Position numbers and translations under genes: made by a program. From a virus, in IMG/VR virus record IMGVR_UViG_3300008266_002469, positions 1 through 20,570 of that record: 20,570 nucleotides of DNA; one strand, given 5' to 3'. This document shows, in pieces, positions 85 to 16,630 of the stretch. Position 1 is the first letter of the stretch; each line of letters starts with the position of its first letter. Under the pieces are notes generated by a model. That model did no database searches and was not told the origin of the DNA. It saw only the letters and a list, made by a program, of their open reading frames with translations.

Positions 85-1656
85 TTACAATAACCACGTT
101 AAATCTTCGCTCTTGCCTCCCACATCATGCTTCCAACTTTCGTTTCTGTTCATGGCTCCTGTGTAGATAGTAGCGTTGTTTCTGGTAGCGTTTAGTGCTG
201 CTTTTGTGATATCGATTCCAGCTTGTCTTAATCTTAAAGCTGTATCTCTTACCCAAATGCCTTGACACATACACAATACCAAGTCGTCGTTATAGCCATT
301 CGCTGCCTGAGCTTTTCCTTCTTTCCAAATGAAAGTAGATAACTCATCCATGAATCGCTTGCTTCTGAATATAAGGCTTTTCTCGCGGGTTAGCAAATCA
401 AACTTACTAATTGCCAATGGTCGTACTTTATGAGACATTGTAAATCCAGCAACCATATCCGTCTTGTTAACTACGTCGTATCCTTTTGCTAGAAACACAT
501 CAGAATCTAAAACATCGCTCTTGTATGTATAATATAGGTTTTTGTAACTTCTATCTATAATTTGTTGAATAGTTGCCCAACCTACGTTGTTATTCTCTAC
601 TACTAGTAGTGCATCATTCCATTCCGTAGCAACACTAACAAGCATGTTGCCAAAGTCTTTTGTTGTTAGCTGTCCTTTGTATTCAGCTACTTGTGATAGG
701 TTCTCTGCATCAAGCACGTGGAATGCTGAATAGTCACTTCCATCACCTCGAGCAACGTCAGCTGTTACAATATAAGTCTTTCTGTAGTCTGGAAGTTCCC
801 AAACCCAATAACCGTTGTCAAAGCCTCTCTTTTCGATAGGCTCCATTGCAGTTGTTTGCAAGTACCATTGTATAAGGTTTGGATCCACAAGTGTGTTACC
901 CGAGCTACTGAAGTCACAATCACATTCCTGTGCTGCAAGTCTCATTCCAAGCTCAGCGTCTTGTCTGTCTCTCCACTCTTGGTTTCTTTCTGGGTGTACT
1001 TGCCAAGGTAGTCTGATGGTCTTGAATACGTTCTCACCAGCCTCTGCTCTGATCCAGATCTTATGAAAGAAGTTACCAGTGCCGTTTGGAGTTGATAGTA
1101 ATATACCTTGTCCTCCAGTAGATAACGTTTGTTGTAGTGATGCCCATAGCTCTTCTGCTCCATCTACGAAAGCTGCCTCGTCAATAATAACCAACGATAA
1201 CGCTTCTGAACGTCCAGATGTTCCTGTGCTTGCTACTGCTTTGATTTGAGAACCGTTTGATAGTCGCATTGAGAGTTTGTTACTCTCCGTACACTTCATC
1301 TTTAACCAACTTGGTAGGTTATCAAACATAACTCGAACCTTTGTTACGAGGTTCTTTGATGTGTTCTGGTCGATTGCTACTACAAGTACGTTCTTATCTG
1401 TGTGGAATAGAATCAACCATAAGCTATATGCAGCAATGAGGGTACTAATACCCAACTGACGTGACTTTAAGATGATTGCTCTATCATTCTCTAGAAAGTG
1501 GTCTAATGCCTCTTTCTGGTACGGATATAAGTGGAACGGAATCTTACCCCTTGTAGGGTGTTGAATCATACAATACTTGTTTGTAAAGTACGAAGGATCA
1601 GTGGCGCACTTAACGTACTCCTCTTTGATTATCTCTTTGAGAGTCTTTTCTGACAT
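85..1656 (-). CDS. terL: Terminase large subunit (gp17-like ATPase-nuclease)
   Basis: This is the DNA-packaging motor. It docks on the portal, pumps DNA into the prohead using ATP and cuts the concatemer. The protein is 523 aa with the full set of TerL motifs. The deviant Walker A is KSRQLGIST (64-72), in which the lysine comes first, as in many T4-like terminases. Walker B with the catalytic Glu is LVIIDE (155-160), and the coupling motif is STPNG (188-192). The RNase H-fold nuclease has acidic residues D300 (TADVARGDGSDY), E354 (VVENNN) and D457/D458 (NDDL). T4 gp17 is 610 aa, so this copy is shorter but complete. The start ATG has no Shine-Dalgarno sequence (AGGAG occurs about 25 nt upstream, too far). 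A 34-nt gap separates it from the gene before; the probable portal follows. No small terminase subunit could be recognised nearby. Confidence 0.97.
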   Translation of the reverse strand: MSEKTLKEIIKEEYVKCATDPSYFTNKYCMIQHPTRGKIPFHLYPYQKEALDHFLENDRAIILKSRQLGISTLIAAYSLWLILFHTDKNVLVVAIDQNTSKNLVTKVRVMFDNLPSWLKMKCTESNKLSMRLSNGSQIKAVASTGTSGRSEALSLVIIDEAAFVDGAEELWASLQQTLSTGGQGILLSTPNGTGNFFHKIWIRAEAGENVFKTIRLPWQVHPERNQEWRDRQDAELGMRLAAQECDCDFSSSGNTLVDPNLIQWYLQTTAMEPIEKRGFDNGYWVWELPDYRKTYIVTADVARGDGSDYSAFHVLDAENLSQVAEYKGQLTTKDFGNMLVSVATEWNDALLVVENNNVGWATIQQIIDRSYKNLYYTYKSDVLDSDVFLAKGYDVVNKTDMVAGFTMSHKVRPLAISKFDLLTREKSLIFRSKRFMDELSTFIWKEGKAQAANGYNDDLVLCMCQGIWVRDTALRLRQAGIDITKAALNATRNNATIYTGAMNRNESWKHDVGGKSEDLTWLL

Positions 1657-1690
1657 ACGTAACTGTTGTTTTTTATTAGCTCCTAGTAAT

Positions 1691-2026
1691 TTAACGGATT
1701 CCTCCAGGAGTCAATTGGTGCTGCATTTGCTCCCCCATTCCTACTTTTTCAAGTATGTATTGCATTGTTTCGCCATCTATGTCAATATCCTGTAAGGTCT
1801 TAATTACCATCTCAACTTTAGCTGCTACAGCAGGGTCTCCCATAAGCATGGTATTTTCTTCAACCTTAGCTGTGTAGTTCTTGTCAATGTAGTTGAAGAA
1901 TTCCTTCTTCTTATCGCCACTCAAATCTCCAATAGAGCTAATGCCGAACTTATCCATAGCCTTCTTAAAGAACTCTTGGTAAGCTGTGTCTTCTTGCAGA
2001 CGTTTAATTATATGCGATGTTTTCAT
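1691..2026 (-). CDS. Small helical protein of unknown function before terL
   Basis: 111 aa, charged and probably mostly helical. The segment with residues FFKKAMDKFG followed by KKKEFFNYIDKNY (about 19-51) resembles a conserved small protein seen next to packaging and head genes in marine T4-like phages; this is from memory, not from a search. The C-terminal half has a hydrophobic/acidic helix and ends GMGEQMQHQLTPGGIR. Its ATG overlaps the stop of the upstream gene by one base (TAATG), so the two are probably translationally coupled. From position and size it could be a prohead-core component or a small terminase, but it lacks a recognisable DNA-binding motif, so no function is assigned. Confidence 0.75.
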   Translation of the reverse strand: MKTSHIIKRLQEDTAYQEFFKKAMDKFGISSIGDLSGDKKKEFFNYIDKNYTAKVEENTMLMGDPAVAAKVEMVIKTLQDIDIDGETMQYILEKVGMGEQMQHQLTPGGIR

Positions 2027-2337
2027 TACTTAACGGTTTCTGTTTTAACATTTCTAAGAACTTGTAGCTTTGTCTCGTTGCTGAATCCCATTGACTCCAT
2101 AAACACAATAAACATGTCGGTAATTGACTCAGCTGATGTGAGTTCGCTGTCTTGCTTAATTCTCTCAACAAGTTTTTGTGCCATCTTGGTAGCTTTGCTA
2201 ACTTCTTCTTGTGGCTGCTCTTCTTCTGGTGCAGGTGCATCCATTTGAGCATTAGGATTTTGCTCCTCTTCTTCTTTCAAAATTGCAGCTATTTGTTGAC
2301 GAACTGCTTTTCTTAGTTGTGATTCTGTAATACGCAT
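2026..2337 (-). CDS. Acidic helical protein of unknown function with LRxxVRxQI motif
   Basis: 103 aa from the ATG at 2337. The frame is open for 20 more codons to an ATG at 2397, but that would overlap the end of the upstream gene, and the TATTTAT motif lies 15 nt before 2337, so MRITESQ is preferred. The N-terminal amphipathic helix ESQLRKAVRQQIAAILKE (5-22) is followed by a Glu/Pro/Gln-rich acidic linker (about 22-46) and a second helical part ending near MGFSNETKLQVLRNVK. A matching helix pattern ends the 63-aa protein at 3689..3880. The composition recalls T4-like prohead-core or scaffold proteins, but that is inference. One-base stop/start overlap (TAATG) with the next gene. Confidence 0.72.
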   Translation of the reverse strand: MRITESQLRKAVRQQIAAILKEEEEQNPNAQMDAPAPEEEQPQEEVSKATKMAQKLVERIKQDSELTSAESITDMFIVFMESMGFSNETKLQVLRNVKTETVK

Positions 2338-2352
2338 TAGTGTAGTTTTTAA

Positions 2353-2360
2353 ATAAATAT
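2353..2360 (-). promoter_or_regulatory. TATTTAT-type motif before the gene at 2337
   Basis: The coding strand reads GATATTTATTTAAAAAC, 15 nt before the ATG at 2337, directly after the stop codon of the preceding gene. It supports the shorter start chosen for that gene. Confidence 0.4.
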
Positions 2361-3025
2361 CAGTAAACCTTCTTATACGATAACATTTTTGGCTCATGTA
2401 GGTAATCTAACCTATCAAATCCAAAGTATTTTGCTTTGTATTGTGCTTGAGCATACTCATCGTAATCGTATTCTCCGTCAAAAAACGGCTTCAAGTCTCT
2501 ATAAGCTTTGTTCCAGTTTGTTTCTGATATGAACACTTCACAGAAAGCTATATGGCTTTTGTATTGCTCGAAGTCGTGAAAGTCGTGTTCGATATGGATA
2601 AGCTCAACCACCTTATCCTCCGTAATGTAATCAAGACAAAAGTCAACCATGTACTTTGGCTTGATGTTAAGCATCTTTACTAATCTCGGATACTTCTTGC
2701 TTAGCCTCTTTAACTGCTCCAAAGCTTCTCCTTTGTAAGCATATCTTGTATTAAGATGACAGTGGTCTAGAAACAAATGCGGATGCTTTTCTTCTTGCAC
2801 CATCCAATCTTGTATGCAAGCTGCTGCATCTGTTGGACTTCCTGGTACAAGGACGTGTCCTTTAATGTTGTTGTGTTGATGGTACAAACTCTCTATGTAA
2901 GTAAGCTCGTATCCAAATCTATCAAAAAACTCAGGAGCCACTAACCTTTCGAACACAGATTCGTCTGGTAGTGGCTCATTAATATATGGGCGTTGTACTA
3001 ACTTGTAATCTAGTACTCTAAACAT
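2360..3025 (-). CDS. Hypothetical protein, His/Asp/Tyr-rich, 221 aa
   Basis: Not recognised. A soluble-looking protein rich in aromatic, acidic and histidine residues. It has no signal peptide or membrane segment. Two histidine-acid clusters stand out: HLFLDHCHLNT near residue 90 and HIEHDFHDFEQY near residue 150. Such clusters could bind a metal, but they match no motif known to me. The ATG at 3025 shares one base with the stop of the upstream gene (TGATG), implying coupled translation; a GTG one codon earlier is also possible. The protein sits in the run of small genes before the large terminase, so a head, neck or packaging accessory role is plausible but unproven. Confidence 0.72.
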   Translation of the reverse strand: MFRVLDYKLVQRPYINEPLPDESVFERLVAPEFFDRFGYELTYIESLYHQHNNIKGHVLVPGSPTDAAACIQDWMVQEEKHPHLFLDHCHLNTRYAYKGEALEQLKRLSKKYPRLVKMLNIKPKYMVDFCLDYITEDKVVELIHIEHDFHDFEQYKSHIAFCEVFISETNWNKAYRDLKPFFDGEYDYDEYAQAQYKAKYFGFDRLDYLHEPKMLSYKKVY

Positions 3026-3435
3026 CACTTCTGGTCTTCTATGACTTTCAAAAAGTTTGTTTGTGCTGCTCCAAAGTTTTTCTTATCTTTGTTGTCAAAT
3101 GTAATTTTTTCAATCACACCATCCTTTTGCTTCATTGCACAAACTGTTGCATCAAAACGCTCCAATCCAGTTAGAGTGTAAACGATACCAAAGATAGCAG
3201 TTTTCTCTGTTACCTTAGCAATTAACTTTGCATCGCTAACAATTAGGTCAAGCATACCAAAGTCCTCTACATCAGCTTCAAAGATCATTTCTTCTCCTTT
3301 CATACCTAAGTATTTGAACAACGGCTTGTATCCGTGTGCTGTTTGAAATTCACGGAAATATGGAAGTCCTACCAGCTCTGGTGTTGACTTGTCTTCTTCC
3401 ACTTCTCTAAGTGGCATGAGGTTAATTAGTTTCAT
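3025..3435 (-). CDS. Hypothetical protein, 136 aa
   Basis: Not recognised. A mixed alpha/beta-looking soluble protein that starts MKLINLMPLREVEEDK and ends in a charged helix. It has no cysteine cluster, signal peptide or nucleotide-binding motif. The ATG at 3435 is only 4 nt from a TATTTAT motif, which lies immediately after the stop codon of the upstream membrane-protein gene, so this start looks firm. Its stop overlaps the next start (TGATG). N-termini with PLRE and a run of acidic residues occur in head-associated proteins of T4-like phages, but this is too weak to assign a role. Confidence 0.72.
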   Translation of the reverse strand: MKLINLMPLREVEEDKSTPELVGLPYFREFQTAHGYKPLFKYLGMKGEEMIFEADVEDFGMLDLIVSDAKLIAKVTEKTAIFGIVYTLTGLERFDATVCAMKQKDGVIEKITFDNKDKKNFGAAQTNFLKVIEDQK

Positions 3436-3439
3436 GTTT

Positions 3440-3688: not shown

Positions 3689-3880
3689 TTATTTTCCTAG
3701 AATTTTACGAACTTGGCTTCGGATTATCTCACGAATTGTATTCTCCTTTGCGTTGATGTGCAAGGCTGCCATATACTTACGCAAAGCTTCTTTATTGCCG
3801 TCAGTGCATCCGACTATATCTCCACCATCTTTTTTATAGACGCAGTACTGATCTCCTACTTTTCTTGCTGTATACGGCAT
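3689..3880 (-). CDS. Small hypothetical protein (63 aa) with C-terminal IRxxIRxQV helix
   Basis: The start chosen is the ATG at 3880, four bases after the stop of the upstream gene; a longer frame to 3940 would overlap that gene by 56 nt. The N-terminal part, MPYTARKVGDQYCVYKKDGG followed by GCTDGNKEALRKYMAAL, is a common small phage/bacterial module: a short beta hairpin, then a Cys-x-x-(x)-x-x-K-EA helix. The function is unknown. The C-terminal 15 residues, IREIIRSQVRKILGK (49-63), form an amphipathic helix matching the pattern near the N-terminus of the protein at 2026..2337. The combination looks like a small core domain plus a portable tag. Confidence 0.68.
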   Translation of the reverse strand: MPYTARKVGDQYCVYKKDGGDIVGCTDGNKEALRKYMAALHINAKENTIREIIRSQVRKILGK

Positions 3881-3884
3881 AGTT

Positions 3885-4478
3885 TTACCACTTTCTGCAA
3901 GACCAGTAGCGAGCCTTGTGTCTTGGACCTGGTGTGTCACAACGGTGTCTTGCTCTAAATGATTTACGTCTTGCTGGATTTGACTTCTTTATTTTCATGT
4001 TAGGATCGCCAAAGTTCACTTTAACAACTTTATCACCCTTTTTAACATATACTTTGAATTTCTTTACGTCGCCTCTCATTGGCTTTCCCAATGGAACTTT
4101 ACGTCCTTGATACTCTGCTTCTGTAATTGGAAATTTACCAGACTTAATGTCTTCTAATAAAGCAATTGCACAACGTCTACATATAGTAGTTTCATAAAAA
4201 CCCATTGGCATTGCTCTTGTGGATCCGGTAGTTGTTGTTTGAGCTGGTTCGTCCTCATACATAGAGTTTTGGCTCATTGCTTGGTTAACAGCTTTGTAAT
4301 TCATATCACTTGAAGGGATTTTGTTATCCATGACCTCTTCATTTTGTGCATTTATTTTCTTAGCAGCTGCAACTGCTTTCTTATATGCTTCGGAACCTTT
4401 ACGAGCAGGCTTTCCACCTCTAGCTCTTTTTGCTCGAATGTTTGCCCACAACCCCTTTGATTCTTCAGATATGCTCAT
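3885..4478 (-). CDS. Basic protein with FGDPNMxIKK...RARHxCD cysteine module
   Basis: 197 aa in two parts. Residues 1-45 are Lys/Arg/Ala-rich (GLWANIRAKRARGGKP, then KAVAAAKKIN), a pattern frequent in marine phage head-region proteins. The C-terminal third reads KVNFGDPNMKIKK, then RRKSFRARHRCDTPGP and ends WSCRKW; this ending is a widespread uncharacterised module of marine T4-like phages (family memory, not searched). The link holds a CRRC pair near residue 100. The strong positive charge suggests nucleic-acid or scaffold contact. There is a 4-nt gap to the upstream gene and to the downstream 63-aa gene, so all are likely in one operon. Function unknown. Confidence 0.75.
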   Translation of the reverse strand: MSISEESKGLWANIRAKRARGGKPARKGSEAYKKAVAAAKKINAQNEEVMDNKIPSSDMNYKAVNQAMSQNSMYEDEPAQTTTTGSTRAMPMGFYETTICRRCAIALLEDIKSGKFPITEAEYQGRKVPLGKPMRGDVKKFKVYVKKGDKVVKVNFGDPNMKIKKSNPARRKSFRARHRCDTPGPRHKARYWSCRKW

Positions 4479-5216: not shown

Positions 5217-7964
5217 TTAAAATCTTAAATATCCTAAAATTTGATTTACGGGTGCAAATGCTCCAGTAAGCTTATACAACTTACCTTTGTATCTAAATAC
5301 TACACCTTCTGTTGGAACAATAGCTTCAAAGCCTCCAATATCCTTTAGTCTAAGTAATTGGTTTTTTAAAAACTTCATTGCAGCATCGCTGTCTGCTATG
5401 GTGTCGCTGTCTACTGCTGTTTGTATGCCCTTTATAGCAGCTGCTACGTCTTGTTTAATTTTCTTAGTAGCGTCGTTTGGGTTAACTGTAGTTAGGTTTT
5501 CGATATTCTTTAATATACGCACACCCAACTTCAAAAACAACCTTTCTACTGGTTGTAGTACTTCTTTCTTTGTTACCTCAACTTCTCCTGATTTGTCGAA
5601 TTGATCAAACCAATTCTTAAACTCCTCGTTTGCAATCTTTGCTTTAATTGCTGGTGATGGTATTGATTTGTCTGTGAATGCCCAACGGTTTACAATAAGC
5701 TCTCGTACTTCTTTTGGGATTTGGTATCCTAACTCATTTGCTTTCTTTTTCACAAAAACATTCCACCATTTACCAACATAGTCTTTTACTGTGTTGGTCT
5801 CCTGCATCTTGTACTTCTGTCTTACTGCATCTGCCATAGCTAGAAACTCCTTCTCCTGAGCGTCATAGTCAGCATCTTGTTTAATTGTGGCTGGGTTAGT
5901 TACTCCGACTTCAAATGTCTTTTCATCATTTCCGCTTTGCACTCCATCAAAAGCTGTCTGTAGTAGTTGCACTCCTTCAACATCATCTTTAATAGCTGTT
6001 CCAGCTTGGTCATATTCCTTAAAGTGGTGCATTCTTAGTAATGCTGCTCCATACGGAATTACGTTTTGCGTTTCTGGAAAGAGAATTTCTAAGTTGATAA
6101 ATCTTTTTCCGTTTTGGAAAAACTGCTCCTTTTGTTCTGGAGTCAGCTTATTTATTGCGTTCTCTAAGTCACGCATAGTTTCAACAAAGGCTGTCTTGAT
6201 TGGACCTCTATTTGCAAATTTCTCAGCTACTTGGTCTATTGTTTTACTCTCTTGGCCAAAATTCTTAAGCTCAGTTTTATTTCTTGCTGATCTTACCTTG
6301 CCATCCTTGTAAGTTACCATTAGGTTCTGACCGTCTAACTTTTCTTGTGCATATTCCAACTTGCCCGAAAGAGCAGCCTTTATCATGTCTTTAATGTCTG
6401 TGAAGGTGAGATCTAAATCCTCGTACGGATGAGCTAAGTGACCAGCTCCTCCTCCTTCTTGTAATTCTACTTTTTCTGCTATAAATGATGATGGCATTGT
6501 GTATTTTTCTAATTTTAATAATTTGATGAGTGTAAAGTATATTACTCCTCCTGGTAGAATTGATGCAGCTCCTAAGCCCATTGTCTTTATCACATCGCCC
6601 AATTGATCTCCTACTGCTTTTCTTTCTGCTGGTGTTAGGTTCTTCTTTCCTTGTGCTGCTTGCACAATCATTGCAAAGGCTTCTTTAGTTTCGTCTTTTT
6701 CTTGTGAGACCTTTTTGATAAAGTCCTTAAAGCGCATTTTTAACTTAGAAAAAAAATCGCTTGGTAGTATTTCTTCTGTTGTAGGCACTGCTGTGTTTGG
6801 TTGAAGTACGTTTTGTGTTCTTATCTTTACGTTTGGATACTTTGCTTTCAGCTGATCTACGGCTGCAAGGTTCTTTGTTGAGTCGTCTAAGAAATACACG
6901 TCGTCATACCCTTGTGCAATTTGATCCTCTATCCATTGTGATTTTTTGTAAGGATCGCTGCTACCTACTCCAATTACTGGTGCTTGTATTCCGATTGTTT
7001 TGAGGTAGTCCTCGACGGACTTGCTATCTGCTCTTGCAGTAAGTACTACAACCTTTCTATCGTTACCATCAGCATTAAGCATAGCTCTCATTACGTTAGT
7101 ATACTTTTTAAATTCCTTTGCTGACTTAATAGGACCACTAAATTCGCTAAAATCAAAAACATCTCCTTCTTGTTCATCATATACCGCATACTCAGCTGGA
7201 GTCATTGTTATCTTTTCACCAGTTGCTTTTTTAGTAATGTGTATTTTGGAGTCGGTGTGTACTAACGTGTCATCGAAATCAAATATGCGAAGCTTATCCT
7301 CATTTAGACTTTCAGAAGCTTTTTTTTTCAAAATACCGTAGACCTTATCTACGATTGCTTTGTCAGCTACGTTTGGGTAGTTGGTAGCAAATGCTTCCTT
7401 GTCATCGTTTTTTAAATCCGCTCTAAGTACGCTTGCGCTAACTCCTTTATTGTTCTCACTTTTGCCTGGTGCATATTTCTCTGCTTTGGGAGTTCTGTTT
7501 TGGTATGGTAGTGGTTTTACGTCTAATGGTAGCTCTACTACATTAACACCTTCTCTTGCATATTTTGATCCTGGCTCGTGCGCTTTTACAAAAGCTTGAA
7601 CTCGTTTGTAATCATCTCCTTTAGAACTTGCAGCAAGTGCGTAGCTTCCTGGCTTTGCAGTCTCAATGTACTTGTAAGCAGCAGTTATAGGACTTGTTAC
7701 TTCTGTCTTTTGGATAAGAATTTTATTATTACTCTTAGTCAACTCTCTCCAAATAGCAATGCTTTGCTCTCTTGTTATACCTTCTCTTGGCTCTGGGCCT
7801 ACTAAGATCATAACTTGACTCACGTTTGGTAGTTGTGAGTAGCGTGTTGCTAACTCAAGATGACCTCCGTGTGGTGGTTTGAATCCACCAGGGAATAGAA
7901 CAATTGTTTGTTCATCTAGTTCCTTTAGTAAGGATTCTGCTAAATAGTTACTTAATAAGCTCAT
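5217..7964 (-). CDS. Four-part fusion: HIGH-type nucleotidyltransferase, HAD phosphatase, LETM1-like segment, ligase-type nucleotidyltransferase
   Basis: 915 aa. Residues 20-215 form a cytidylyltransferase/NMN-adenylyltransferase-like domain: FPGGFKPPHGGH (24-35, HxGH at 32-35) and the late VSAS motif (175-178). Residues 225-385 form a HAD hydrolase: DFDDT (229-233, D229/D231), LTAR (T309), K340/K341 and LDDS (D360/D361). Residues 438-495 are hydrophobic, flanked by LTPAERK and MPSSF, resembling the core of LETM1-like domains. Residues 500-915 have ligase-superfamily motifs: KLDG (K542, probable nucleotidyl-lysine), RSARN (558-562), NLEILF (E626), EGVVF (886-890) and KLYKLTG (895-901). Phosphatase plus ligase points to nucleic-acid end repair, as in T4 Pnkp plus Rnl; the first domain could instead serve NAD metabolism. 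Substrates are unknown. The first 11 residues, MSLLSNYLAES, resemble the T4 capsid-targeting peptide. Its start overlaps the upstream gene by 17 nt. Confidence 0.85.
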   Translation of the reverse strand: MSLLSNYLAESLLKELDEQTIVLFPGGFKPPHGGHLELATRYSQLPNVSQVMILVGPEPREGITREQSIAIWRELTKSNNKILIQKTEVTSPITAAYKYIETAKPGSYALAASSKGDDYKRVQAFVKAHEPGSKYAREGVNVVELPLDVKPLPYQNRTPKAEKYAPGKSENNKGVSASVLRADLKNDDKEAFATNYPNVADKAIVDKVYGILKKKASESLNEDKLRIFDFDDTLVHTDSKIHITKKATGEKITMTPAEYAVYDEQEGDVFDFSEFSGPIKSAKEFKKYTNVMRAMLNADGNDRKVVVLTARADSKSVEDYLKTIGIQAPVIGVGSSDPYKKSQWIEDQIAQGYDDVYFLDDSTKNLAAVDQLKAKYPNVKIRTQNVLQPNTAVPTTEEILPSDFFSKLKMRFKDFIKKVSQEKDETKEAFAMIVQAAQGKKNLTPAERKAVGDQLGDVIKTMGLGAASILPGGVIYFTLIKLLKLEKYTMPSSFIAEKVELQEGGGAGHLAHPYEDLDLTFTDIKDMIKAALSGKLEYAQEKLDGQNLMVTYKDGKVRSARNKTELKNFGQESKTIDQVAEKFANRGPIKTAFVETMRDLENAINKLTPEQKEQFFQNGKRFINLEILFPETQNVIPYGAALLRMHHFKEYDQAGTAIKDDVEGVQLLQTAFDGVQSGNDEKTFEVGVTNPATIKQDADYDAQEKEFLAMADAVRQKYKMQETNTVKDYVGKWWNVFVKKKANELGYQIPKEVRELIVNRWAFTDKSIPSPAIKAKIANEEFKNWFDQFDKSGEVEVTKKEVLQPVERLFLKLGVRILKNIENLTTVNPNDATKKIKQDVAAAIKGIQTAVDSDTIADSDAAMKFLKNQLLRLKDIGGFEAIVPTEGVVFRYKGKLYKLTGAFAPVNQILGYLRF

Positions 7965-8484
7965 TACTACTATAAATAGTTTGTGTATTTGTTTGCCTGG
8001 CTATTTTTGCAATTTCTGCCTGCATGTGACGCATTTGCTGCTCTAAGCTTCTTATTTTGTCTACTAAAGATTCTTTTGTGTGTAAAAATAGGATGTCTGA
8101 TGCTACCACTTTTCCATTAACAAATAATCTATAATCCTTGTGTACTACTTCATCAACTGTCTGCTCTCCGATATATACTTTCTTAGTAAACCTTCCTTCA
8201 ATCAAACTCCTAGACTCTATTTCTTTTGATGCTGGGTTGTATGCCATATACTTTGATATGAAAAATAGCTTGTCGTTTGAGATGGATGCATCCATTGATG
8301 GCGTTCCTATTCTCAATACAAAAGGATTTTGATCATGTTTCTGTATAATTTCTGGCACACTCTCGCCTTTCCATTGTGGATGTATTGTTCTTATATGAAT
8401 CCTATCCATGTAAGGTCCATCTACAAGAAGGTTCAGTAACGGAGCTTGTATTGTTAAAGCCTTATAATGCTTAGTTGGTACCAT
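7948..8484 (-). CDS. Coiled-coil fibre-type protein (tail-fibre C-terminus-like)
   Basis: 178 aa. The N-terminal two thirds are beta-rich, with no known catalytic motif. The C-terminal third reads KDYRLFVNGKVVASDILFLH, then a heptad-like helix (KIRSLEQQMRHMQAEIAKIA, about 144-163). A short beta hairpin DYxLxVNGKV followed by a coiled coil is the usual end of trimeric phage fibres, where it acts as a trimerisation or chaperone segment. Its ATG lies 1 nt after the stop of the 1220-aa structural gene, so the two are probably made together and may interact. Its last 17 nt overlap the start of the 915-aa enzyme gene. A minor fibre or fibre chaperone is likely; the exact position on the virion is unknown. 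Confidence 0.65.
   Translation of the reverse strand: MVPTKHYKALTIQAPLLNLLVDGPYMDRIHIRTIHPQWKGESVPEIIQKHDQNPFVLRIGTPSMDASISNDKLFFISKYMAYNPASKEIESRSLIEGRFTKKVYIGEQTVDEVVHKDYRLFVNGKVVASDILFLHTKESLVDKIRSLEQQMRHMQAEIAKIARQTNTQTIYSSNELIK
7971..7979 (-). promoter_or_regulatory. TATTTAT-type motif before the 915-aa fusion gene
   Basis: The coding strand reads AAACTATTTATAGTAGTAATG, motif 6 nt before the ATG at 7964. It lies inside the 3' end of the upstream gene (codons for TIYSS), so its sequence is under double constraint. Confidence 0.38.
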
Positions 8485-8485
8485 G

Positions 8486-11400
8486 TTACGAGGTTTTTGG
8501 TGGTTTGATATAGTAAGGATCCGTTGTCACTCCTATCTTACAAAACTCAACACTATCTACTGCACACCCAAAATAAGATCCTGGGTCTCCTGATGGTTCA
8601 AACACAAGTTGTCCTGGTGTTCCATATTGTATAAGATTGATCTCGTACTCATCGTAGAGGTACCCAGTCACACTATCGTAGAATTGAATTGGTGGTATGT
8701 TATATCCGTTAGTTGTAATTTGATTACCTATTTTTACAATGTTTTGCGATGGTGGGTAGTAGCCTGGTTGTCCTTGTGTAGGTAGGCCATCGAATGGTGT
8801 AGAAACGTCGAATATATATAGCATTAGGTACGATCCGGTGTCTGGTTGGAACCAATTAGATGTGTTGGATCCTGATTGGTATCTTTTTAATCTAAACTTA
8901 ACGTTATATATACCTCCGTTTTCTGTAAACACGCTTCCAGTTAATGGTCCGCTAAATGGAAAATAGAATCTTCTTTGCTTGTATGCAGTTGCTTTTTGTG
9001 CTGTTGTAAAACCTGCGCCACTCGTTGTTATATAGGACTGCGATACATCAAATCTAGTAATACCTGCAGCTCCTGAGTTTACTGGAGGTTGTAAATCAAG
9101 GGATGATGATCCAAACGGATTGGATATGGATGCTGGTTTATAGGATGCACTAATAACTGCTCTATTAAAAGAGGCTGTGAATTGTGCGTTGGTAGGAATG
9201 AAGTCTATATACATTGCGGATCCATTAAGCTGAGAGTAGGTCTCTGAGAATTGATCAAAAAACTTCCAGGATGCCTGTACTGTTGCCTTTGATACTGCTG
9301 GCCTTACTGATCCAGGTCCTCCTTTTACATTACTTCCTGTTGGTGCTACACCACCAGCTGCATTGGCCACTTCAGAGTATATTGGGTCTCCTTCCGTTGT
9401 CCTCACTGCTTGTCCTAATCCAGGATATATCTCCCATGATGACGTATATATAAATTTACCATCAAATACACCAGCTCCAAGATCGGCAAGGGTAGTTCTG
9501 TTTAGCCATCTAGGAGCAAAGATTGGTTTATACGGCCGAAGTGCATTCCATCCTGTCCATTCGTGTAGTGTTGGGTCTGGTCCGTTGTATGTGGATCCTA
9601 TACCATAGCCATACCTCTTTGCTGAGTTGTAGTATCCCCCGAGATCATTGTATTGGAGCACTCTGCCGTATGCATTATTGAAGCTGAGTTGAGCATACAT
9701 TTGATCGTATGCTGGGTAGTATCTGCGACTACGTATTGTGCTACTTGTGAGAGAAGCTCTGAGATCCAATGATGCACTCTTGCCCCAACCTCCTACCATG
9801 TAGCTAAGTGCATTAGTTGGTGCAAATGAAGGTACTACAGTGTTGTCGTTACTACCTAACTGACAAAACGAGTGTGTGTTGTATGATGTGTTTGTGTTGC
9901 TACTAGCTGTTATATTTGCATAGGCCGATCCGTAAGCATTAATTGGAGGGCTAGTGCTTGAGAACATATACGGTGCAATTGCCGTGTTTCTATAAGTTGC
10001 GCTTTCTGTTACAATTGCCCAAATTGTTGGGTTAAAGAAAAACTTATAGTTTTCAACTCGACAAACGTTGCTTTCTATTTCCGATGTTAACGATAAGTTG
10101 ATTCCGTTTAAATACGTAACATACTCAGACTGCTTTCCTGTATGATCGTAGTACTCAAATTTAAAATCCACACTCTCTGATACCAAAGACTCAAATCCAG
10201 GAGGAGCGTTTATTGCATATTGGTATATTTCTGGGGTGTACCCATTCCTCTTTAGCGGAGTTACACTAATTTCACTCAAGTAAGCGGCAGCTGTCTTTGT
10301 AGTGTCAATTGACTTAATACGAAACAGCGGTCTACCATATCCATCGTTGTCGGCTAAGAGATCAAAAATAACCCTACCGTAATCTTTACGTTCCCCGGAG
10401 TTGTTTGCGATGTTACCAATAAACTTTCCAAACCTACTATCCGTTTGTGGATATCTAGCTCTTTCGCTATTTTTAGAAAGGTTGTATGCTTGAGCAAACG
10501 GAGTGGAATCGTAGAGCTGTGTAGACGCGGGTGCGCTATTTGCATACACCTCTAGTATTGTGTTAGCTTCCAGCACGCACACAAAGCTAAAACTAAACGC
10601 TTGACTCTTTTGGTATATCTGATATCCTTGAGTTGTGAGTATTGTCGTAATTGATCCTGCTGGTACTGGTAAGTAGGCTGAGTCCATTAGTACGTCCTCG
10701 TTGCGGGTAGCGTAGTATGTGTCTATTGAAGTCGCTGTTTCCCTATAACCCTTCCAAAAAGTTTCGAGAGTTAGTTGATCTAAGAAGTGGCCATACAGCT
10801 TAAATGGCGATACTTCTTTGGCATAAGATGTTGAGTTTACGTCTTTTGCATCTGTTAAATACTCTGTGCTAGCAACGCGTTGGTCGTTTATTATTTGATA
10901 GTCCCCAGAAAGGCTGTTTTGGCGATAAAAAGATTTAATCCTATAGACATTTCCTCCAATTGGTTTTAAGTCTTGAAAAGTAAATTGCAGATAAGACTGA
11001 CTTACTGTTGTGCTTGTTACGACTATTACTGGATCAATGTACTCTACTTCAGTTTTAATATCTTGCGATGATCTAAATGTGTGCGTTGCTGTTCGTTTGA
11101 GTGAGTTCTTCTTACTGCTATTAAAACTATCTACATTTACTTGTAGTGGTTTATCTAAAAGATACGAGCTTTTGTTTAGTACTCGTATTACCGTTCCTGC
11201 ATATTGACTAAGTTGTGTTGCTAGTGACTGAGTTTGCCCTGGTAGTACAAGATTATTGTATGGGTTAGTTTTTGCATATACGGCTGTACTTGATAAAGAT
11301 CTCGACGCTTTTGTATATGTGTTGCCTGTGCTGAGTATGACCAACGCTCCTTTATCATTACTTCTTGCATCAAACCCATTTGTTATCTGATATATTGTTC

Positions 11401-12148
11401 TGAACCTGTTTGTGTCTGTAAGAAGCTGCCCTCCTTGTATATCATAATCATCCTGTCTTACAGTATTTATTACTTGATTTGCTGTGGATGACACTCCTTG
11501 ATTCTTTAAAGCAAAGTCTCTAATGTTGCTATCTTGTATATCTTTGCTAGTTGCAGATACCTTATCAAATCCTTCAACATTTGCTGTTATGATAGATCCT
11601 GTGAGATATTTTATAGGATTGCCTGTACCCTTGCTATCCGTAGTAACGGTTTTTGCTGGTGCTACTATTTGTCCAATAGACACTTGTGGTGGTCTGTCAA
11701 ATACTAATGGACTTTCGTTTCTCTCAAAGGGTTGTATAAGTAATGGCTTGGCTATTATTAGGTTAAAGCCTTGACTATTTACATCGTCAGGCTCAATATA
11801 CTCGCCATCAGGTGTTGCATTTGCAACTCCAACGAAAGAAATACTTCCATATCCTTCAGCAGTTGAGTCTTGTACGTATATTGATACGTAGTAATTTCCA
11901 AACCTATCCCTAAATTCTGGTATCTCTGTCCGCACTGCATTGCCTAGTGCATCTAATACTTCAACCTCAAGTTGAGCAGAAGTGTGTAAGTTGATTGTTG
12001 ATGGGTAGAACTTAACGAGACTAACACCACCTCCAATGTAAGTAGGCATGTCTACAAACTCCACATAGGGTGAGTTACTTGACGTATCATGCACTCGGTA
12101 GGTTTGTTTTATAAAATCTCTCTTATAGAAAGGTTGTAGAAAATCCAT
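8486..12148 (-). CDS. Large virion structural protein (tail fibre or baseplate type)
   Basis: 1220 aa, rich in Ser, Thr, Tyr, Asn, Gly and short beta strands. It has no signal peptide, membrane segment or enzymatic motif, which is typical of fibre, baseplate or other tail-surface proteins. The N-terminus, MDFLQPFYKRDFIKQTYRV, then a beta-rich part with KFYPSTINLHTSAQLEVEVLD, looks like a distinct attachment domain of about 170 residues ending near IIAKPLLIQPFERNE. Several beta-sandwich domains follow; the last 120 residues look like one more. A TATTTAT motif lies 16 nt before the ATG, which follows the stop of the upstream gene by 28 nt; the next gene begins 1 nt after its stop. Adhesin versus baseplate role cannot be settled from sequence. 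Confidence 0.78.
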   Translation of the reverse strand: MDFLQPFYKRDFIKQTYRVHDTSSNSPYVEFVDMPTYIGGGVSLVKFYPSTINLHTSAQLEVEVLDALGNAVRTEIPEFRDRFGNYYVSIYVQDSTAEGYGSISFVGVANATPDGEYIEPDDVNSQGFNLIIAKPLLIQPFERNESPLVFDRPPQVSIGQIVAPAKTVTTDSKGTGNPIKYLTGSIITANVEGFDKVSATSKDIQDSNIRDFALKNQGVSSTANQVINTVRQDDYDIQGGQLLTDTNRFRTIYQITNGFDARSNDKGALVILSTGNTYTKASRSLSSTAVYAKTNPYNNLVLPGQTQSLATQLSQYAGTVIRVLNKSSYLLDKPLQVNVDSFNSSKKNSLKRTATHTFRSSQDIKTEVEYIDPVIVVTSTTVSQSYLQFTFQDLKPIGGNVYRIKSFYRQNSLSGDYQIINDQRVASTEYLTDAKDVNSTSYAKEVSPFKLYGHFLDQLTLETFWKGYRETATSIDTYYATRNEDVLMDSAYLPVPAGSITTILTTQGYQIYQKSQAFSFSFVCVLEANTILEVYANSAPASTQLYDSTPFAQAYNLSKNSERARYPQTDSRFGKFIGNIANNSGERKDYGRVIFDLLADNDGYGRPLFRIKSIDTTKTAAAYLSEISVTPLKRNGYTPEIYQYAINAPPGFESLVSESVDFKFEYYDHTGKQSEYVTYLNGINLSLTSEIESNVCRVENYKFFFNPTIWAIVTESATYRNTAIAPYMFSSTSPPINAYGSAYANITASSNTNTSYNTHSFCQLGSNDNTVVPSFAPTNALSYMVGGWGKSASLDLRASLTSSTIRSRRYYPAYDQMYAQLSFNNAYGRVLQYNDLGGYYNSAKRYGYGIGSTYNGPDPTLHEWTGWNALRPYKPIFAPRWLNRTTLADLGAGVFDGKFIYTSSWEIYPGLGQAVRTTEGDPIYSEVANAAGGVAPTGSNVKGGPGSVRPAVSKATVQASWKFFDQFSETYSQLNGSAMYIDFIPTNAQFTASFNRAVISASYKPASISNPFGSSSLDLQPPVNSGAAGITRFDVSQSYITTSGAGFTTAQKATAYKQRRFYFPFSGPLTGSVFTENGGIYNVKFRLKRYQSGSNTSNWFQPDTGSYLMLYIFDVSTPFDGLPTQGQPGYYPPSQNIVKIGNQITTNGYNIPPIQFYDSVTGYLYDEYEINLIQYGTPGQLVFEPSGDPGSYFGCAVDSVEFCKIGVTTDPYYIKPPKTS

Positions 12149-12176: not shown

Positions 12177-12674
12177 CTAATGCTTAATATAGCTCAAATC
12201 ATCCTTACGATCAATTGTAAGTATTACGTCAACCATGTCTCGTACTACGTCAATGTGGCTAATAATCAAGCTGAACTTGAACGTATCTTTGAGGTAGTTA
12301 AAGAACATGTGCATTGAGTTGAGGTTAGAGCTGTCGAGTACTCCAAGTCCTTCATCGATTGCAATGAAGTTTGGTTTAGGTAGGTTGGTAATCTTGATCA
12401 ATGCCACGCGGATTGCCAGCGAACTCACAAATCTCTCCATCCCAGATGCCAACTCTAGTGGCCACTTGTTGTCATCGTATGCTATGTATACGTTGATATT
12501 CTTGCCATCTGTCTCAATCTCTACTGTGAAGTCAGTGACTTGAGCTAATATGTTGTTAACGTATGACTGGATGTATGGTATGGCTTTACTGATGAGTGAG
12601 TATGGGATACCATCTCTGCCAACAGCTTTAAGGTAGTAGCCATATGCTACCTGCTTTTCAGACAATTCCTGCAT
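12177..12674 (-). CDS. Rad50/gp46-type ATPase C-terminal lobe as a separate ORF
   Basis: 165 aa containing only the second half of an SbcC/Rad50 ATPase head. It has the ABC signature region LASGMERFVSSLAIRVAL (S77, G78, E80), Walker B with catalytic Glu FIAIDEG (D107, E108), the D-loop VLD (112-114) and a switch histidine in ISHIDVV (about 138-144). The segment KAVGRDGIPYSLISKAIPYI (16-35) is the usual junction between the returning coiled coil and the C-lobe. The matching N-lobe, Walker A and coiled coil are in the preceding ORF; the two overlap by 17 nt in a +1 relation. A working head needs both halves, so they should either associate as separate chains or be joined by frameshifting. Removing one A from the AAAA at 12680..12683 (T on the plus strand) also fuses the frames. 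Confidence 0.88.
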   Translation of the reverse strand: MQELSEKQVAYGYYLKAVGRDGIPYSLISKAIPYIQSYVNNILAQVTDFTVEIETDGKNINVYIAYDDNKWPLELASGMERFVSSLAIRVALIKITNLPKPNFIAIDEGLGVLDSSNLNSMHMFFNYLKDTFKFSLIISHIDVVRDMVDVILTIDRKDDLSYIKH

Positions 12675-15285
12675 GAAAGTTTTGAACCTCTTGATTAGCT
12701 ATATCTGCTTGCGCCTTTACTTTGGTAGCCTCTTCTCGTAATTCTTTAATAGACTCGTTTAAAACCTCGTTCGCTTGTATTGTAGCTAAGTTATCGTTAT
12801 AGGTCTTGATATTGGATTCTACCCGCTCTAACTTAGCCTTATACGTTTGTATTTGACTTTCGATTGACTCTGCCTTAGAATCCATCACATTTAGCCCGTT
12901 TGTCAGTCTTTGCTTCTCTGTTGCAACTCCTTCGAAGTACTTGTACTGAGCTTCTATGTCCTTATACTTCTCTAAGTAGTCCTCCACCTCTCTTCTTGAA
13001 GACAAGAACTCAGCAACATGCTTTTTATCGTCCTCTAACTCCTGTTTTGTCTTAATTGCATCTTTTACAAAGATATTCTCAACACAGTGCTTACAATTTG
13101 GATCATACTCATGCTCCTCTAACCTCTTTAGCTTATCCAGCTTTGTTGAGATTGTGACTTTATAGTGCTGTAACTTGGCATCTAGCTCTGTTTTTTGAGA
13201 TAGCATCATGCAGTAGTCTGCGTAGTCGGATTGGACTGCTCCTACGTCTCCCTTGCTAAACTCATCGCTGAGTCTGTTTATCTCAGCCTGCACCACCTCT
13301 ACCCTATCTTGTGTTGTTTTTAGGTCTGCCACCTTGCTCTCTACCTCCTTAAGCAGGCCTGTTTGTTGTGACTGTAGGGTGTCTAGATCAAGTCCATCTG
13401 CCTCAGTTAGTTTGATTTGCTCAGAGAGTGAAATAATTTGCTCATTTAGATCGCTTAATTGCTCTTGAATAGCGTTATACTCTGCTAACTTGGTTTTGTA
13501 TAGCTCTTGGTTTTGCTCCAAAGACATCTCCGCATCGCCAAGTGATTGCTCAAAGTCTTGCTTCTCATACTCCTCTAGCAACACTGTAGTGGTTCTTATC
13601 TCTTTACTCGCCAATTCATTGAGGTTGTCAAATATTTTTAAGTCAAGAAAGTTTGCAAGCAAGTCCTTTCTCTCACCTTGTGTCTTCTCTATGAAGCTGG
13701 AGTTATTACCTTGTAGTGATAGTGCTGTAAGTATGAAATCATCGAAGGTTCCCACGTAGGATTGGATGATCTTATCAGTGTCACGTCTTTGCTCTCCATT
13801 GAGTATAACCTTCTCTCCATCGTCGTTTACATACCAGAAGTCAATGTCTACACGCAACTTTCCGGCCAATGGACCTTTCTGATACTTTGTAGCTCTTTTT
13901 TCGATGAAATAGTCCAATCCGTTGAGTTCGAAGTTGAACTTACACCAGAAGCCATCCTTCTTTCTATTGAGTACTTGATCAGCTTTGCTTGCTCTATGAG
14001 AGTGATCGAATAGGCAGAAGCATAGTGAGTCTAAGGTTGCTGATTTGCCTGCATGATTGGGTGCAAATAGGCCACATATCCCATTTAGGTTATCAAAGTT
14101 GACTACGTTCCCCTCACCATAGCTAAACATATTATCGAACTCAAACTTCTTTGGAGTCCATACTACGTTGCGTACAAGCTCTCCAGCTATGAGAGACTGG
14201 TTAAACCCTTTATTTATCTCCAATATCTTAGCTTCGAGCTCATCGTCTATTCCATATGGCTCTAGGTATTCTTTTATTAAGGTCGTTTGGTAGTCAACAC
14301 TTCGAACGTCTAATCCTTGTAAACTGTCATCTATGTTTAATCCGTTCTGAGTCGCTATCTTATCCATGTTGGATACAATTACTTCTCCGTTCTTATACTT
14401 CTTTCTAATAGCGGCTAATGCCTTTTTAAGCTGTGCTGGTGATGTATTATATACTTTGGCACGTACGCTTGTCTTGGAAGTTATAGGAAGGTCGTCTGGA
14501 ACAATTCCATCGACTATATCAAATGTAAAGTATCCATAATCGTTTGGAATGTCAAAATGCTCAACAGTACGAGTTGGTACGTCAACAATTGCATACCCAT
14601 GTCCTTCAAATGATTCTCCGAAGTTTTGCTGTACGGTGCTTCCTGGGTAAAATATTAACGGATCCTCCTTTGAAAGGATTTGTCTTTTGTGAATATCTCC
14701 TAACAAAACAATATCATATCCAGCAAACGTATCCCAATCTAAACCATGAGCAATGTTTAAACCACTATCAACTTTACTATTAGCAATAGTTCCGTGGTAC
14801 ATTGCAATTAGTGTATCTGCCTTTCCTTCTAGAACATCTGCTGTTGCATACTCACTTGGTGCATCTAACAAAGACATGACTGCCAGCATTGTGTCACCTA
14901 CCTTATAGGTTCCGCTGTCTCTAAGATAAAATAAGTTAGGATGGTTCTGTGCTTCTACAATTGGCGTAAGAGCATCTAATCTATGATTATTATTTAAGTT
15001 TGCATCGTGGTTTCCGCAAATCACAATCGTAGGTCTAATGTCAGCTAAGTTATTAAATAAGTATGAAACCATATGGATCAACTCAGGACTCATGTCAGTC
15101 TTAGCGTGTACTATATCTCCACCAATAGTGATGATACTATCTTCTGGTAATTGCTTTGCGACTTCGAAAAGTTTATCAAATACCAACTTATACTCTTTGT
15201 GACGCTTCCAGTTTCTAATGTGTACATCAGCAATGTGAAGTATCTTGTCTACCTTCTTTAGGTTTATCTTGACTTTGTTTATCAT
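12658..15285 (-). CDS. Fused Mre11/gp47 nuclease and Rad50/gp46 N-lobe with zinc hook
   Basis: 875 aa. Residues 14-370 are an SbcD/Mre11/gp47-type metallophosphoesterase: DVH (D20, H22), GGDIVH (D57), GNHD (91-94), H164 and GDIH (196-199). From about 380 the chain becomes the N-lobe of an SbcC/Rad50/gp46 ATPase. The Walker A is FAPNHAGKS (407-415), in which Ala and His replace the usual glycines of GxNGxGKS. A long coiled coil follows, with a zinc-hook CKHC (731-734) and a return helix to residue 875. The complex resects double-strand ends for recombination and, in T4, recombination-dependent replication. In T4 the two proteins are separate; here nuclease and N-lobe are one chain, and the C-lobe lies in the next ORF. 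The start overlaps the primase stop (ATGA). Confidence 0.93.
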   Translation of the reverse strand: MINKVKINLKKVDKILHIADVHIRNWKRHKEYKLVFDKLFEVAKQLPEDSIITIGGDIVHAKTDMSPELIHMVSYLFNNLADIRPTIVICGNHDANLNNNHRLDALTPIVEAQNHPNLFYLRDSGTYKVGDTMLAVMSLLDAPSEYATADVLEGKADTLIAMYHGTIANSKVDSGLNIAHGLDWDTFAGYDIVLLGDIHKRQILSKEDPLIFYPGSTVQQNFGESFEGHGYAIVDVPTRTVEHFDIPNDYGYFTFDIVDGIVPDDLPITSKTSVRAKVYNTSPAQLKKALAAIRKKYKNGEVIVSNMDKIATQNGLNIDDSLQGLDVRSVDYQTTLIKEYLEPYGIDDELEAKILEINKGFNQSLIAGELVRNVVWTPKKFEFDNMFSYGEGNVVNFDNLNGICGLFAPNHAGKSATLDSLCFCLFDHSHRASKADQVLNRKKDGFWCKFNFELNGLDYFIEKRATKYQKGPLAGKLRVDIDFWYVNDDGEKVILNGEQRRDTDKIIQSYVGTFDDFILTALSLQGNNSSFIEKTQGERKDLLANFLDLKIFDNLNELASKEIRTTTVLLEEYEKQDFEQSLGDAEMSLEQNQELYKTKLAEYNAIQEQLSDLNEQIISLSEQIKLTEADGLDLDTLQSQQTGLLKEVESKVADLKTTQDRVEVVQAEINRLSDEFSKGDVGAVQSDYADYCMMLSQKTELDAKLQHYKVTISTKLDKLKRLEEHEYDPNCKHCVENIFVKDAIKTKQELEDDKKHVAEFLSSRREVEDYLEKYKDIEAQYKYFEGVATEKQRLTNGLNVMDSKAESIESQIQTYKAKLERVESNIKTYNDNLATIQANEVLNESIKELREEATKVKAQADIANQEVQNFHAGIV

Positions 15286-16228: not shown

Positions 16229-16630
16229 TTACAAATCCAACCACTCTTGTGGAATAGTTTTATCAGCGTATATGAATCCGTGCTTAACGCACCAATCAGC
16301 GTATGTTGTCGGTGACCCTTTTCTAATTTTGTTCTTGGAGTTCTGAAATACAAATCGAATGTCTAGTTCAGGATGCTGCTTTCTTATAAGCACGTGCTTC
16401 TTTCTATCCTCTACAACAAACCTTCCTTTAGTCTCTATAAAGATTCCGTTTGGAAGTCGGAAATCGGGTGTGTATGTGTGGTCAGTAGCTGGTACTGTGT
16501 ACTTAATTTTGTGTTTCTCGTACTCACCATCTATGTTGCGTTGCTTAAGTGCGCCATCAACAACCTCTTCGAGACCGCTTCTGTAACCGTTCTTAACTGC
16601 TGCTTGTCTTTTCGTAACCTTTCTTGCCAT
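16229..16630 (-). CDS. T7-type endonuclease I (Holliday-junction resolvase)
   Basis: 133 aa, closely matching T7 gp3 along its length. Shared stretches include RSGLEE near the start, HTYTPDF, LPNGIFIETKG, DRKKHVLIRKQHPELDIR, KGSPTTY and the near-terminal FIYADKTIPQEW. The catalytic residues E20, D55, E65 and K67 of T7 endonuclease I correspond to E21, D56, E66 and K68 here. It cuts four-way junctions and branched DNA so that replicated concatemers can be packaged, and may also break down host DNA. T4 uses the unrelated endonuclease VII (gp49) for this task. The ATG at 16630 overlaps the stop of the upstream structural gene by one base (TAATG). A basic C-terminal tail seen in T7 gp3 is missing. 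Confidence 0.96.
   Translation of the reverse strand: MARKVTKRQAAVKNGYRSGLEEVVDGALKQRNIDGEYEKHKIKYTVPATDHTYTPDFRLPNGIFIETKGRFVVEDRKKHVLIRKQHPELDIRFVFQNSKNKIRKGSPTTYADWCVKHGFIYADKTIPQEWLDL

Follow-up and report, generated by a model that had tools for sequence, protein, structure and literature searches.

A putative virion-packaged polyprotein of a T4-type phage with prohead-protease-like sites between its enzyme modules

An open reading frame (ORF) of 915 codons in an uncultured phage fragment joins a HIGH-type nucleotidyltransferase, a HAD phosphatase, a hydrophobic segment and a ligase-type domain in one chain, which raises the question of whether these parts work as a single enzyme or are made together and then separated. 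Our answer, which we hold to be likely and in which we infer packaging, cleavage, injection and substrates, is that the product is a virion-packaged polyprotein of a T4-type phage, cut by the prohead protease into separate enzymes, which then enter the host together with the DNA. The folds, catalytic motifs, N-terminal tag, site distribution, head-gene context and module swapping described below were computed directly.

The ORF and the folds of its modules

The window, meaning the whole stretch of DNA that was analysed, is a 20,570-base IMG/VR record. Its terminase is 54% identical to the terminases of Microcystis phage Mel-JY01 and Flavobacterium phage immuto, and by sequence comparison the window phage is a member of the T4 superfamily. 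The ORF lies on the minus strand, from an ATG at 7964 down to 5217 (Table 1); in the reading-frame check the plus strand of this interval showed many stops. Values of dN/dS against relatives are 0.05–0.12 in all parts of the protein, and purifying selection acts along the whole ORF. An assembly chimera, named in the sequence-only reading as a possible source of the fusion, was excluded: the same order of parts is found in relatives with nucleotidyltransferase, HAD and ligase and in contig L001 from another metagenome, and since this independent contig repeats the order and is 92% identical across the part of the protein that it contains (745 residues), the gene is not an assembly join. A GTDB scan for cellular homologues gave just two matches, both on short metagenome-assembled contigs, so that such homologues are not evident.

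The catalytic residues picked out from the letters alone were confirmed (HGGH 32–35, D229/D231, D360/D361, K542 in EKLDG and EGVVF 886–890). Predicted structures agreed with the initial calls of a HIGH nucleotidyltransferase, a HAD phosphatase and a ligase-type enzyme, with K542 sitting in a nucleotidyltransferase fold. The domain searches proposed at that stage gave a divided result: phrog_415 (‘polynucleotide kinase’) matched residues 220–373 at E 2e-8, whereas the CTP_transf_like match found in the sequence-library search (E 0.011) was under the family cut-off, and the folds came from structure prediction.

The N-terminal enzyme was examined in the second structure model, which covered residues 1–505 (pLDDT 85). 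Structure comparison assigned about residues 19–220 of this model a PPAT/NadD-type fold (Z 12.8–14), which the PPAT and NMN adenylyltransferase groups match about equally, at 12–20% identity. The HIGH-type fold and the HxGH motif are common to this domain and to PPAT (CoaD), NadD and NMN adenylyltransferases; restoration of NAD or of another nucleotide cofactor is one possible role of a PPAT/NadD-like enzyme. The modelled fold is not that of a kinase, and the earlier idea that the first domain takes the place of the usual kinase found no support.

For the predicted HAD structure, the best counterparts among known structures are the 3′-phosphatase domain of T4 Pnkp, with Z 13.7 over 126 aa, and the bacterial Pnkp that belongs to the Pnkp-Rnl-Hen1 complex, with Z 12.9. 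A P-loop 5′-kinase was absent from the window protein in both sequence-library and structure searches. Compared by sequence with solved structures, the profiles of the HAD domain and of the hydrophobic segment behind it yielded nothing useful. An assignment of this segment to LETM1 was a weak lead only (E 0.08 in two of nine members), and phrog_415 proved uninformative as a marker in carrier genomes, because the model also matches half of the control genomes.

The C-terminal 410 residues were modelled with AlphaFold2 from an alignment of 58 relatives (pLDDT 94). The model matches the Naegleria ligase (Z 9.2 over 185 aa, 4.0 Å), T4 Rnl1 (8.9), T4 Rnl2 (8.5) and the trypanosome editing ligase TbREL1 (8.4), with tRNA ligases, DNA ligases and capping enzymes lower in the ranking. 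Foldseek alone gave no match to the domain at E <0.001, the ligase profile reached no solved ligase by sequence, and structurally several Rnl families tie. Residues E541, K542, D544, G545, E626, E886, G887 and K898 are invariant or nearly so in the 58 sequences. Motifs I, III, IV and V (KxDG, the motif III glutamate, EG(V/I)VF and YK(L/F)TG) are conserved, as is ARNK. In the model, residues 504–915 form a member of the RNA-ligase-type covalent nucleotidyltransferase superfamily.

Table 1. Coordinates of the putative polyprotein gene, its parts and neighbouring features in the window
Feature	Coordinates	Strand	Basis or remark
Large terminase subunit	85..1656	-	54% identical to Mel-JY01 and immuto terminases
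Putative polyprotein gene, 915 aa	5217..7964	-	ORF; dN/dS 0.05–0.12
Predicted RNA-ligase-type covalent nucleotidyltransferase, residues 504–915 (K542, E886-G887, YKLTG)	5220..6455	-	AlphaFold2 model, motifs
Putative junction sites IAE (495–497) and LQE (501–503), before ligase domain	6456..6482	-	pLDDT 36–42
Helical/hydrophobic segment, residues 403–486, optional	6507..6758	-	Structure model; weak LETM1_RBD hint
Predicted HAD phosphatase, residues 223–390 (D229, D231, D360, D361)	6795..7298	-	T4 Pnkp 3′-phosphatase fold; phrog_415
Putative junction site LNE, residues 220–222	7299..7307	-	Motif scan and structure model
Predicted HIGH-type nucleotidyltransferase, residues 19–220 (HGGH 32–35; SASVLR motif)	7305..7910	-	PPAT/NadD fold, Z 12.8–14
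N-terminal tag, residues 1–18 (MSLLSNYLAESLLKELDE), three [LI]xE motifs (E10, E15, E18)	7911..7964	-	Helix 3–16, pLDDT 55–63
Promoter-like motif TATTTATA, 7 bases upstream of ATG	7971..7978	-	Also before virion genes

N-terminal tag and [LI]xE motifs at the module junctions

In the scans, prohead-protease sites were given the T4 form [LI]xE, a cleavage rule that may differ in the carrier phages. The T4 sequence shows this form at LTE-65 of gp23, LLIE-9 of gp21 and LLRE-10 of gp24; cleavage of gp24 is stated in the T4 record, and we take LLRE-10 to be its exact site. The T4 propeptides comprise 65 residues in gp23 and nine in gp21 (PMC9958956), and the packaged T4 protein Alt has the sites ITE-6 and LTE-619, cleavage always taking place after glutamate (PMC5694885).

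The window protein contains six strict [LI]xE motifs, ending at E10, E15, E18, E222, E497 and E503; the first three belong to the tag and the others to module junctions. The three folded domains hold none against 6.8 expected, an outcome seen in 0.05% of shuffles when each domain was shuffled. The junction between the HAD domain and the hydrophobic segment has no strict [LI]xE in the window protein. Model pLDDT falls at the tag, at 390–402 and at 488–505, with a mild fall at 211–220; the linkers that join the modules have low model confidence. The tag resembles the capsid-targeting sequences of T4.

The same distribution was found over 123 relatives, where the density of [LI]xE per 1000 aa is 5.3 within the recognised domains but 19.6 in the rest of the sequence (3.7-fold), the outside/inside ratios of the control motifs being 0.96 for ExL (the reversed motif), 1.06 for LxD and 1.25 for LxK. 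At 103 of 115 ligase junctions, [LIVMF]xE immediately precedes the first glycines of the ligase domain. In a set thinned to <60% identity, by which kinship among the sequences is only partly corrected, 16 of 21 ligase representatives have a site no more than 8 aa upstream of the domain, against 3.0 expected, and 10 of 12 HAD representatives have one no more than 9 aa upstream, against 1.8 expected; neither count was reached in any of 2000 shuffles. Stand-alone HAD genes have varied tags, all ending in LxE directly before the domain, for example MKLLLENWREYLNE/SKLRVFD, MIKLKDLLLE/KKLRVFD and MLKLVDLLTE/KKLRVFD (the slash marks the domain border). One relative of 905 residues (L156) has just two [LI]xE sites in all, and these separate its three modules. 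When [LI]xE is counted along the complete N-termini of head-cluster proteins, it is enriched only about two-fold, and for this reason we base the argument on the tests at the junctions. Tag-less starts occur in many nucleotidyltransferase-first relatives, and the L153 lineage has separate untagged genes.

The motif might also mark a short, recurrent helix that serves in targeting or docking and is passed on together with the modules, the protein staying at full length in the particle. We consider this highly improbable. The tags are helical in the model and several LxE are present within one linker in some relatives, both in keeping with a docking helix; however, LxE is depleted within the domains too, which is expected of protease sites because internal ones would be cut, and the capsid-targeting sequences of T4 are themselves taken off by the protease (PMC7411985).

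Head-gene context and promoter-like motif

In three related contigs the putative polyprotein gene is part of a cluster that also contains genes for terminase, portal, S77 protease and major capsid protein, as well as scaffold-like genes. The S77 prohead protease is encoded in 16 of 18 larger carrier records, the two without it being contigs of 44 and 48 kb, and in three of nine mostly short carrier records. The window holds no S77 protease gene, being a fragment of 20 kb, and the protease link rests on relatives.

The promoter-like motif TATTTATA was found no more than 45 bases upstream of 13 of 19, 9 of 12 and 12 of 18 starts in three contigs, and its opposite orientation upstream of 1, 1 and 0 starts in the same contigs. 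Genes with TATTTATA belong mostly to the head-tail cluster and include the polyprotein gene in the three contigs and in the window. The T4 late promoter TATAAATA does not stand before these genes, but its reverse complement TATTTATA does, on the coding strand. With its place in the head-tail cluster and this motif, the polyprotein gene fits a late gene.

Some further features of the surroundings were recorded. The motif TATTTATA, in minus-strand reading, is found in the window at 3439, 7971, 12165, 18236, 18964 and 20121, upstream of late genes. Small minus-strand genes by the terminase (3025–3435, 2026–2397 and 3689–3940) carry the tags MKLINLMPLRE or MRITESQLRKAVRQQIAAILKE, or a C-terminal helix NTIREIIRSQVRKILGK, and their products are candidate packaged or core proteins. 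An SbcCD-type (gp46/gp47-like) gene is split in the window into two overlapping minus-strand ORFs (12177–12674 and 12658–15285) and is a single ORF of 1055–1061 aa in three related contigs; the split may come from a frameshift, from the loss of an internal piece or from faulty assembly. A T7-type endonuclease I (16229–16630, minus strand; PF05367, E 2e-59) lies amid the virion and recombination genes of this T4-type phage. In LR756508.1 (156507–158102) a single 576-aa ORF matches the S77 protease in two separate parts, as if divided by an insertion, which may be an intein.

Module swapping, possible role and relation to known systems

Scans of viral contigs found the ligase module in at least 586 stretches and the nucleotidyltransferase in at least 542. 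In the fetched set, the ligase is always C-terminal and the parts preceding it vary, in proteins of up to 1581 aa: 53 proteins consist of nucleotidyltransferase and ligase, 12 have the hydrophobic segment in addition, three a HAD domain and two both, and many other architectures are present. The survey of related phages suggested in the sequence-only reading showed the window's order again in contig L001 and the parts also as separate genes: the nucleotidyltransferase is the sole module in several relatives, the ligase stands alone in L032, L056 and L105, and a separate HAD gene is present in many large-phage contigs. Among close relatives, L002–L006 lack the HAD domain, and L007 and L008 lack both it and the hydrophobic segment. 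In L036 (4125–6239) a decayed HAD remnant without active-site motifs is situated between an intact nucleotidyltransferase and an intact ligase; the HAD domain is therefore dispensable. A Zeta_toxin/AAA_33-type P-loop kinase is part of the same protein in L076, and the other modules of relatives are HD (L081), ParB_N (L031), DUF6267 (L156), Pol-beta-like and HNH-like.

These data bear on the simplest alternative, a single multifunctional enzyme, made during infection and not packaged, whose three domains act as a unit on nucleic-acid ends or NAD. Such an enzyme would agree with the retention of every catalytic motif in one ORF and with purifying selection along the entire protein. In known repair systems Pnkp- and Rnl-type domains co-operate, and where phages counter anticodon nucleases by repairing RNA, HAD phosphatases act jointly with RNA ligases (review, PMC7824862). 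However, the gene is located among head genes and has a virion-type promoter motif, the protein bears a targeting-like tag, LxE sites confined to the junctions and low-confidence linkers, and its modules are freely gained and lost, also as separate tagged genes. The initial claim that one polypeptide does its chemistry as a unit probably does not hold, and we regard this alternative as unlikely.

Under the polyprotein reading, the protein would be synthesized late and drawn by its N-terminal tag into the prohead core, where the S77 prohead protease would cleave after glutamate at the [LI]xE motifs of the tag and the module junctions. The predicted products are the nucleotidyltransferase (residues 19–222, about 22 kDa), the HAD phosphatase with a hydrophobic tail (223–497, about 31 kDa) and the RNA-ligase-type enzyme (504–915, about 47 kDa). 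The mature enzymes would remain in the head, enter the host with the DNA and act ahead of phage gene expression. Phosphatase and ligase would most likely mend nucleic-acid ends, such as those of tRNAs cleaved by host nucleases, and the HIGH enzyme would make or restore a nucleotide cofactor. The link to T4 Pnkp/Rnl-type end repair, proposed from the sequence alone, was borne out by the phosphatase and ligase folds, which fit RNA or DNA end repair after removal of a 3′-phosphate; relatives add the P-loop kinase, which together with phosphatase and ligase would make up a full end-repair set.

The tag, the sites and the head-gene context would also fit packaged or prohead-associated enzymes whose work is done inside the head during its assembly and not in the next host; their substrate would be the DNA of the phage itself, on which they would clean up ends or seal nicks, either ahead of packaging or after it. 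DNA can indeed be a substrate of ligases and 3′-phosphatases, but the nearest structures to the ligase domain are RNA ligases, and accessory modules as varied as HD, ParB, Pol-beta and kinase are easier to picture as an arsenal for injection than as parts of an assembly step, so that we think action within the head improbable.

In its general form the polyprotein proposal is more tentative. It is possible, at somewhat less than even chance, that the heads of T4-superfamily phages are loaded in advance with a set of enzymes for repair and counter-defence, which is made as one polyprotein, cut by the prohead protease and brought into the host along with the DNA, and which restores cut tRNAs or depleted cofactors before gene expression. 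Such a set would comprise the nucleotidyltransferase, 3′-phosphatase and RNA ligase and, in relatives, also the kinase, Pol-beta, HD, ParB and the ligase-like DUF6267. If this is true, tailed phages deliver enzymes by a strategy like the polyproteins of animal viruses, in which one gene, one targeting tag and the maturation protease free many enzymes. LxE junction sites by a T4-type head cluster would then be a rule for spotting injected enzymes in uncultured phage contigs, and RNA repair delivered in the virion, beyond post-infection expression, would become testable. The cultured relative Flavobacterium phage immuto brings a test of packaging within reach.

Precedents exist for the packaging of enzymes (T4 Alt), for capsid targeting sequences, for enzymes of RNA repair and for multidomain injected polyvalent proteins (PMC5512222). 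The literature search found no T4-type polyprotein with prohead-protease-like junction sites, no virion-packaged RNA ligase and no paper on DUF6267. The T4 internal proteins (Alt, IPI-IPIII) likewise have a short N-terminal tag ending in (L/I)xE, a late head-gene context and the S77 protease; they carry one effector each, whereas the window protein has several enzymes per chain with sites between them. With T4 Pnkp/Rnl1 and bacterial Pnkp-Rnl-Hen1 the protein has in common the HAD fold (Z 13.7 and 12.9) and the RNA-ligase fold (Z up to 9.2). Unlike these systems, it has no kinase, includes a PPAT/NadD-type enzyme and is predicted to be preloaded in the virion.

Polyvalent proteins (Iyer et al. 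2017, PMC5512222) combine enzymatic domains of different kinds in one large phage protein, for which packaging and injection with the DNA are predicted. As in the window protein, at least two such domains are found per polypeptide, and ParB and Pol-beta modules are common to both families. Processing of polyvalent proteins is assigned mainly to internal zincin peptidases, present in about 36% (PMC5512222); the window protein differs in having no HExxH and, instead, prohead-protease-like sites at its junctions. Their 2H domains are reported without RNA-ligase association (PMC5512222), whereas the ligase module is constant in the window family. The window protein is best read as a prohead-protease variant of polyvalent proteins. 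Phage immuto links both types: in the same genomic place it has a 907-aa protein in which a similar HIGH nucleotidyltransferase is fused to a protease-like domain with HExxH, and the gene that follows encodes a tagged HAD protein.

Two observations on relatives may be added. DUF6267 (PF19782), found at residues 520–905 of L156 and in L150, has KWDGSP and EGGEGYV, which by eye resemble ligase motifs I and IV, and may be a second divergent ligase-type module. In the immuto record (L282), the stretches 115–3439 and 10615–11915 drew attention: this phage has a Pol-beta/HIGH-nucleotidyltransferase/HExxH protein, a tagged 5′-nucleotidase-like HAD protein and two unrelated proteins with the common tag NF(N/D)L(R/K)(S/K)FL(T/V)ENKLT.
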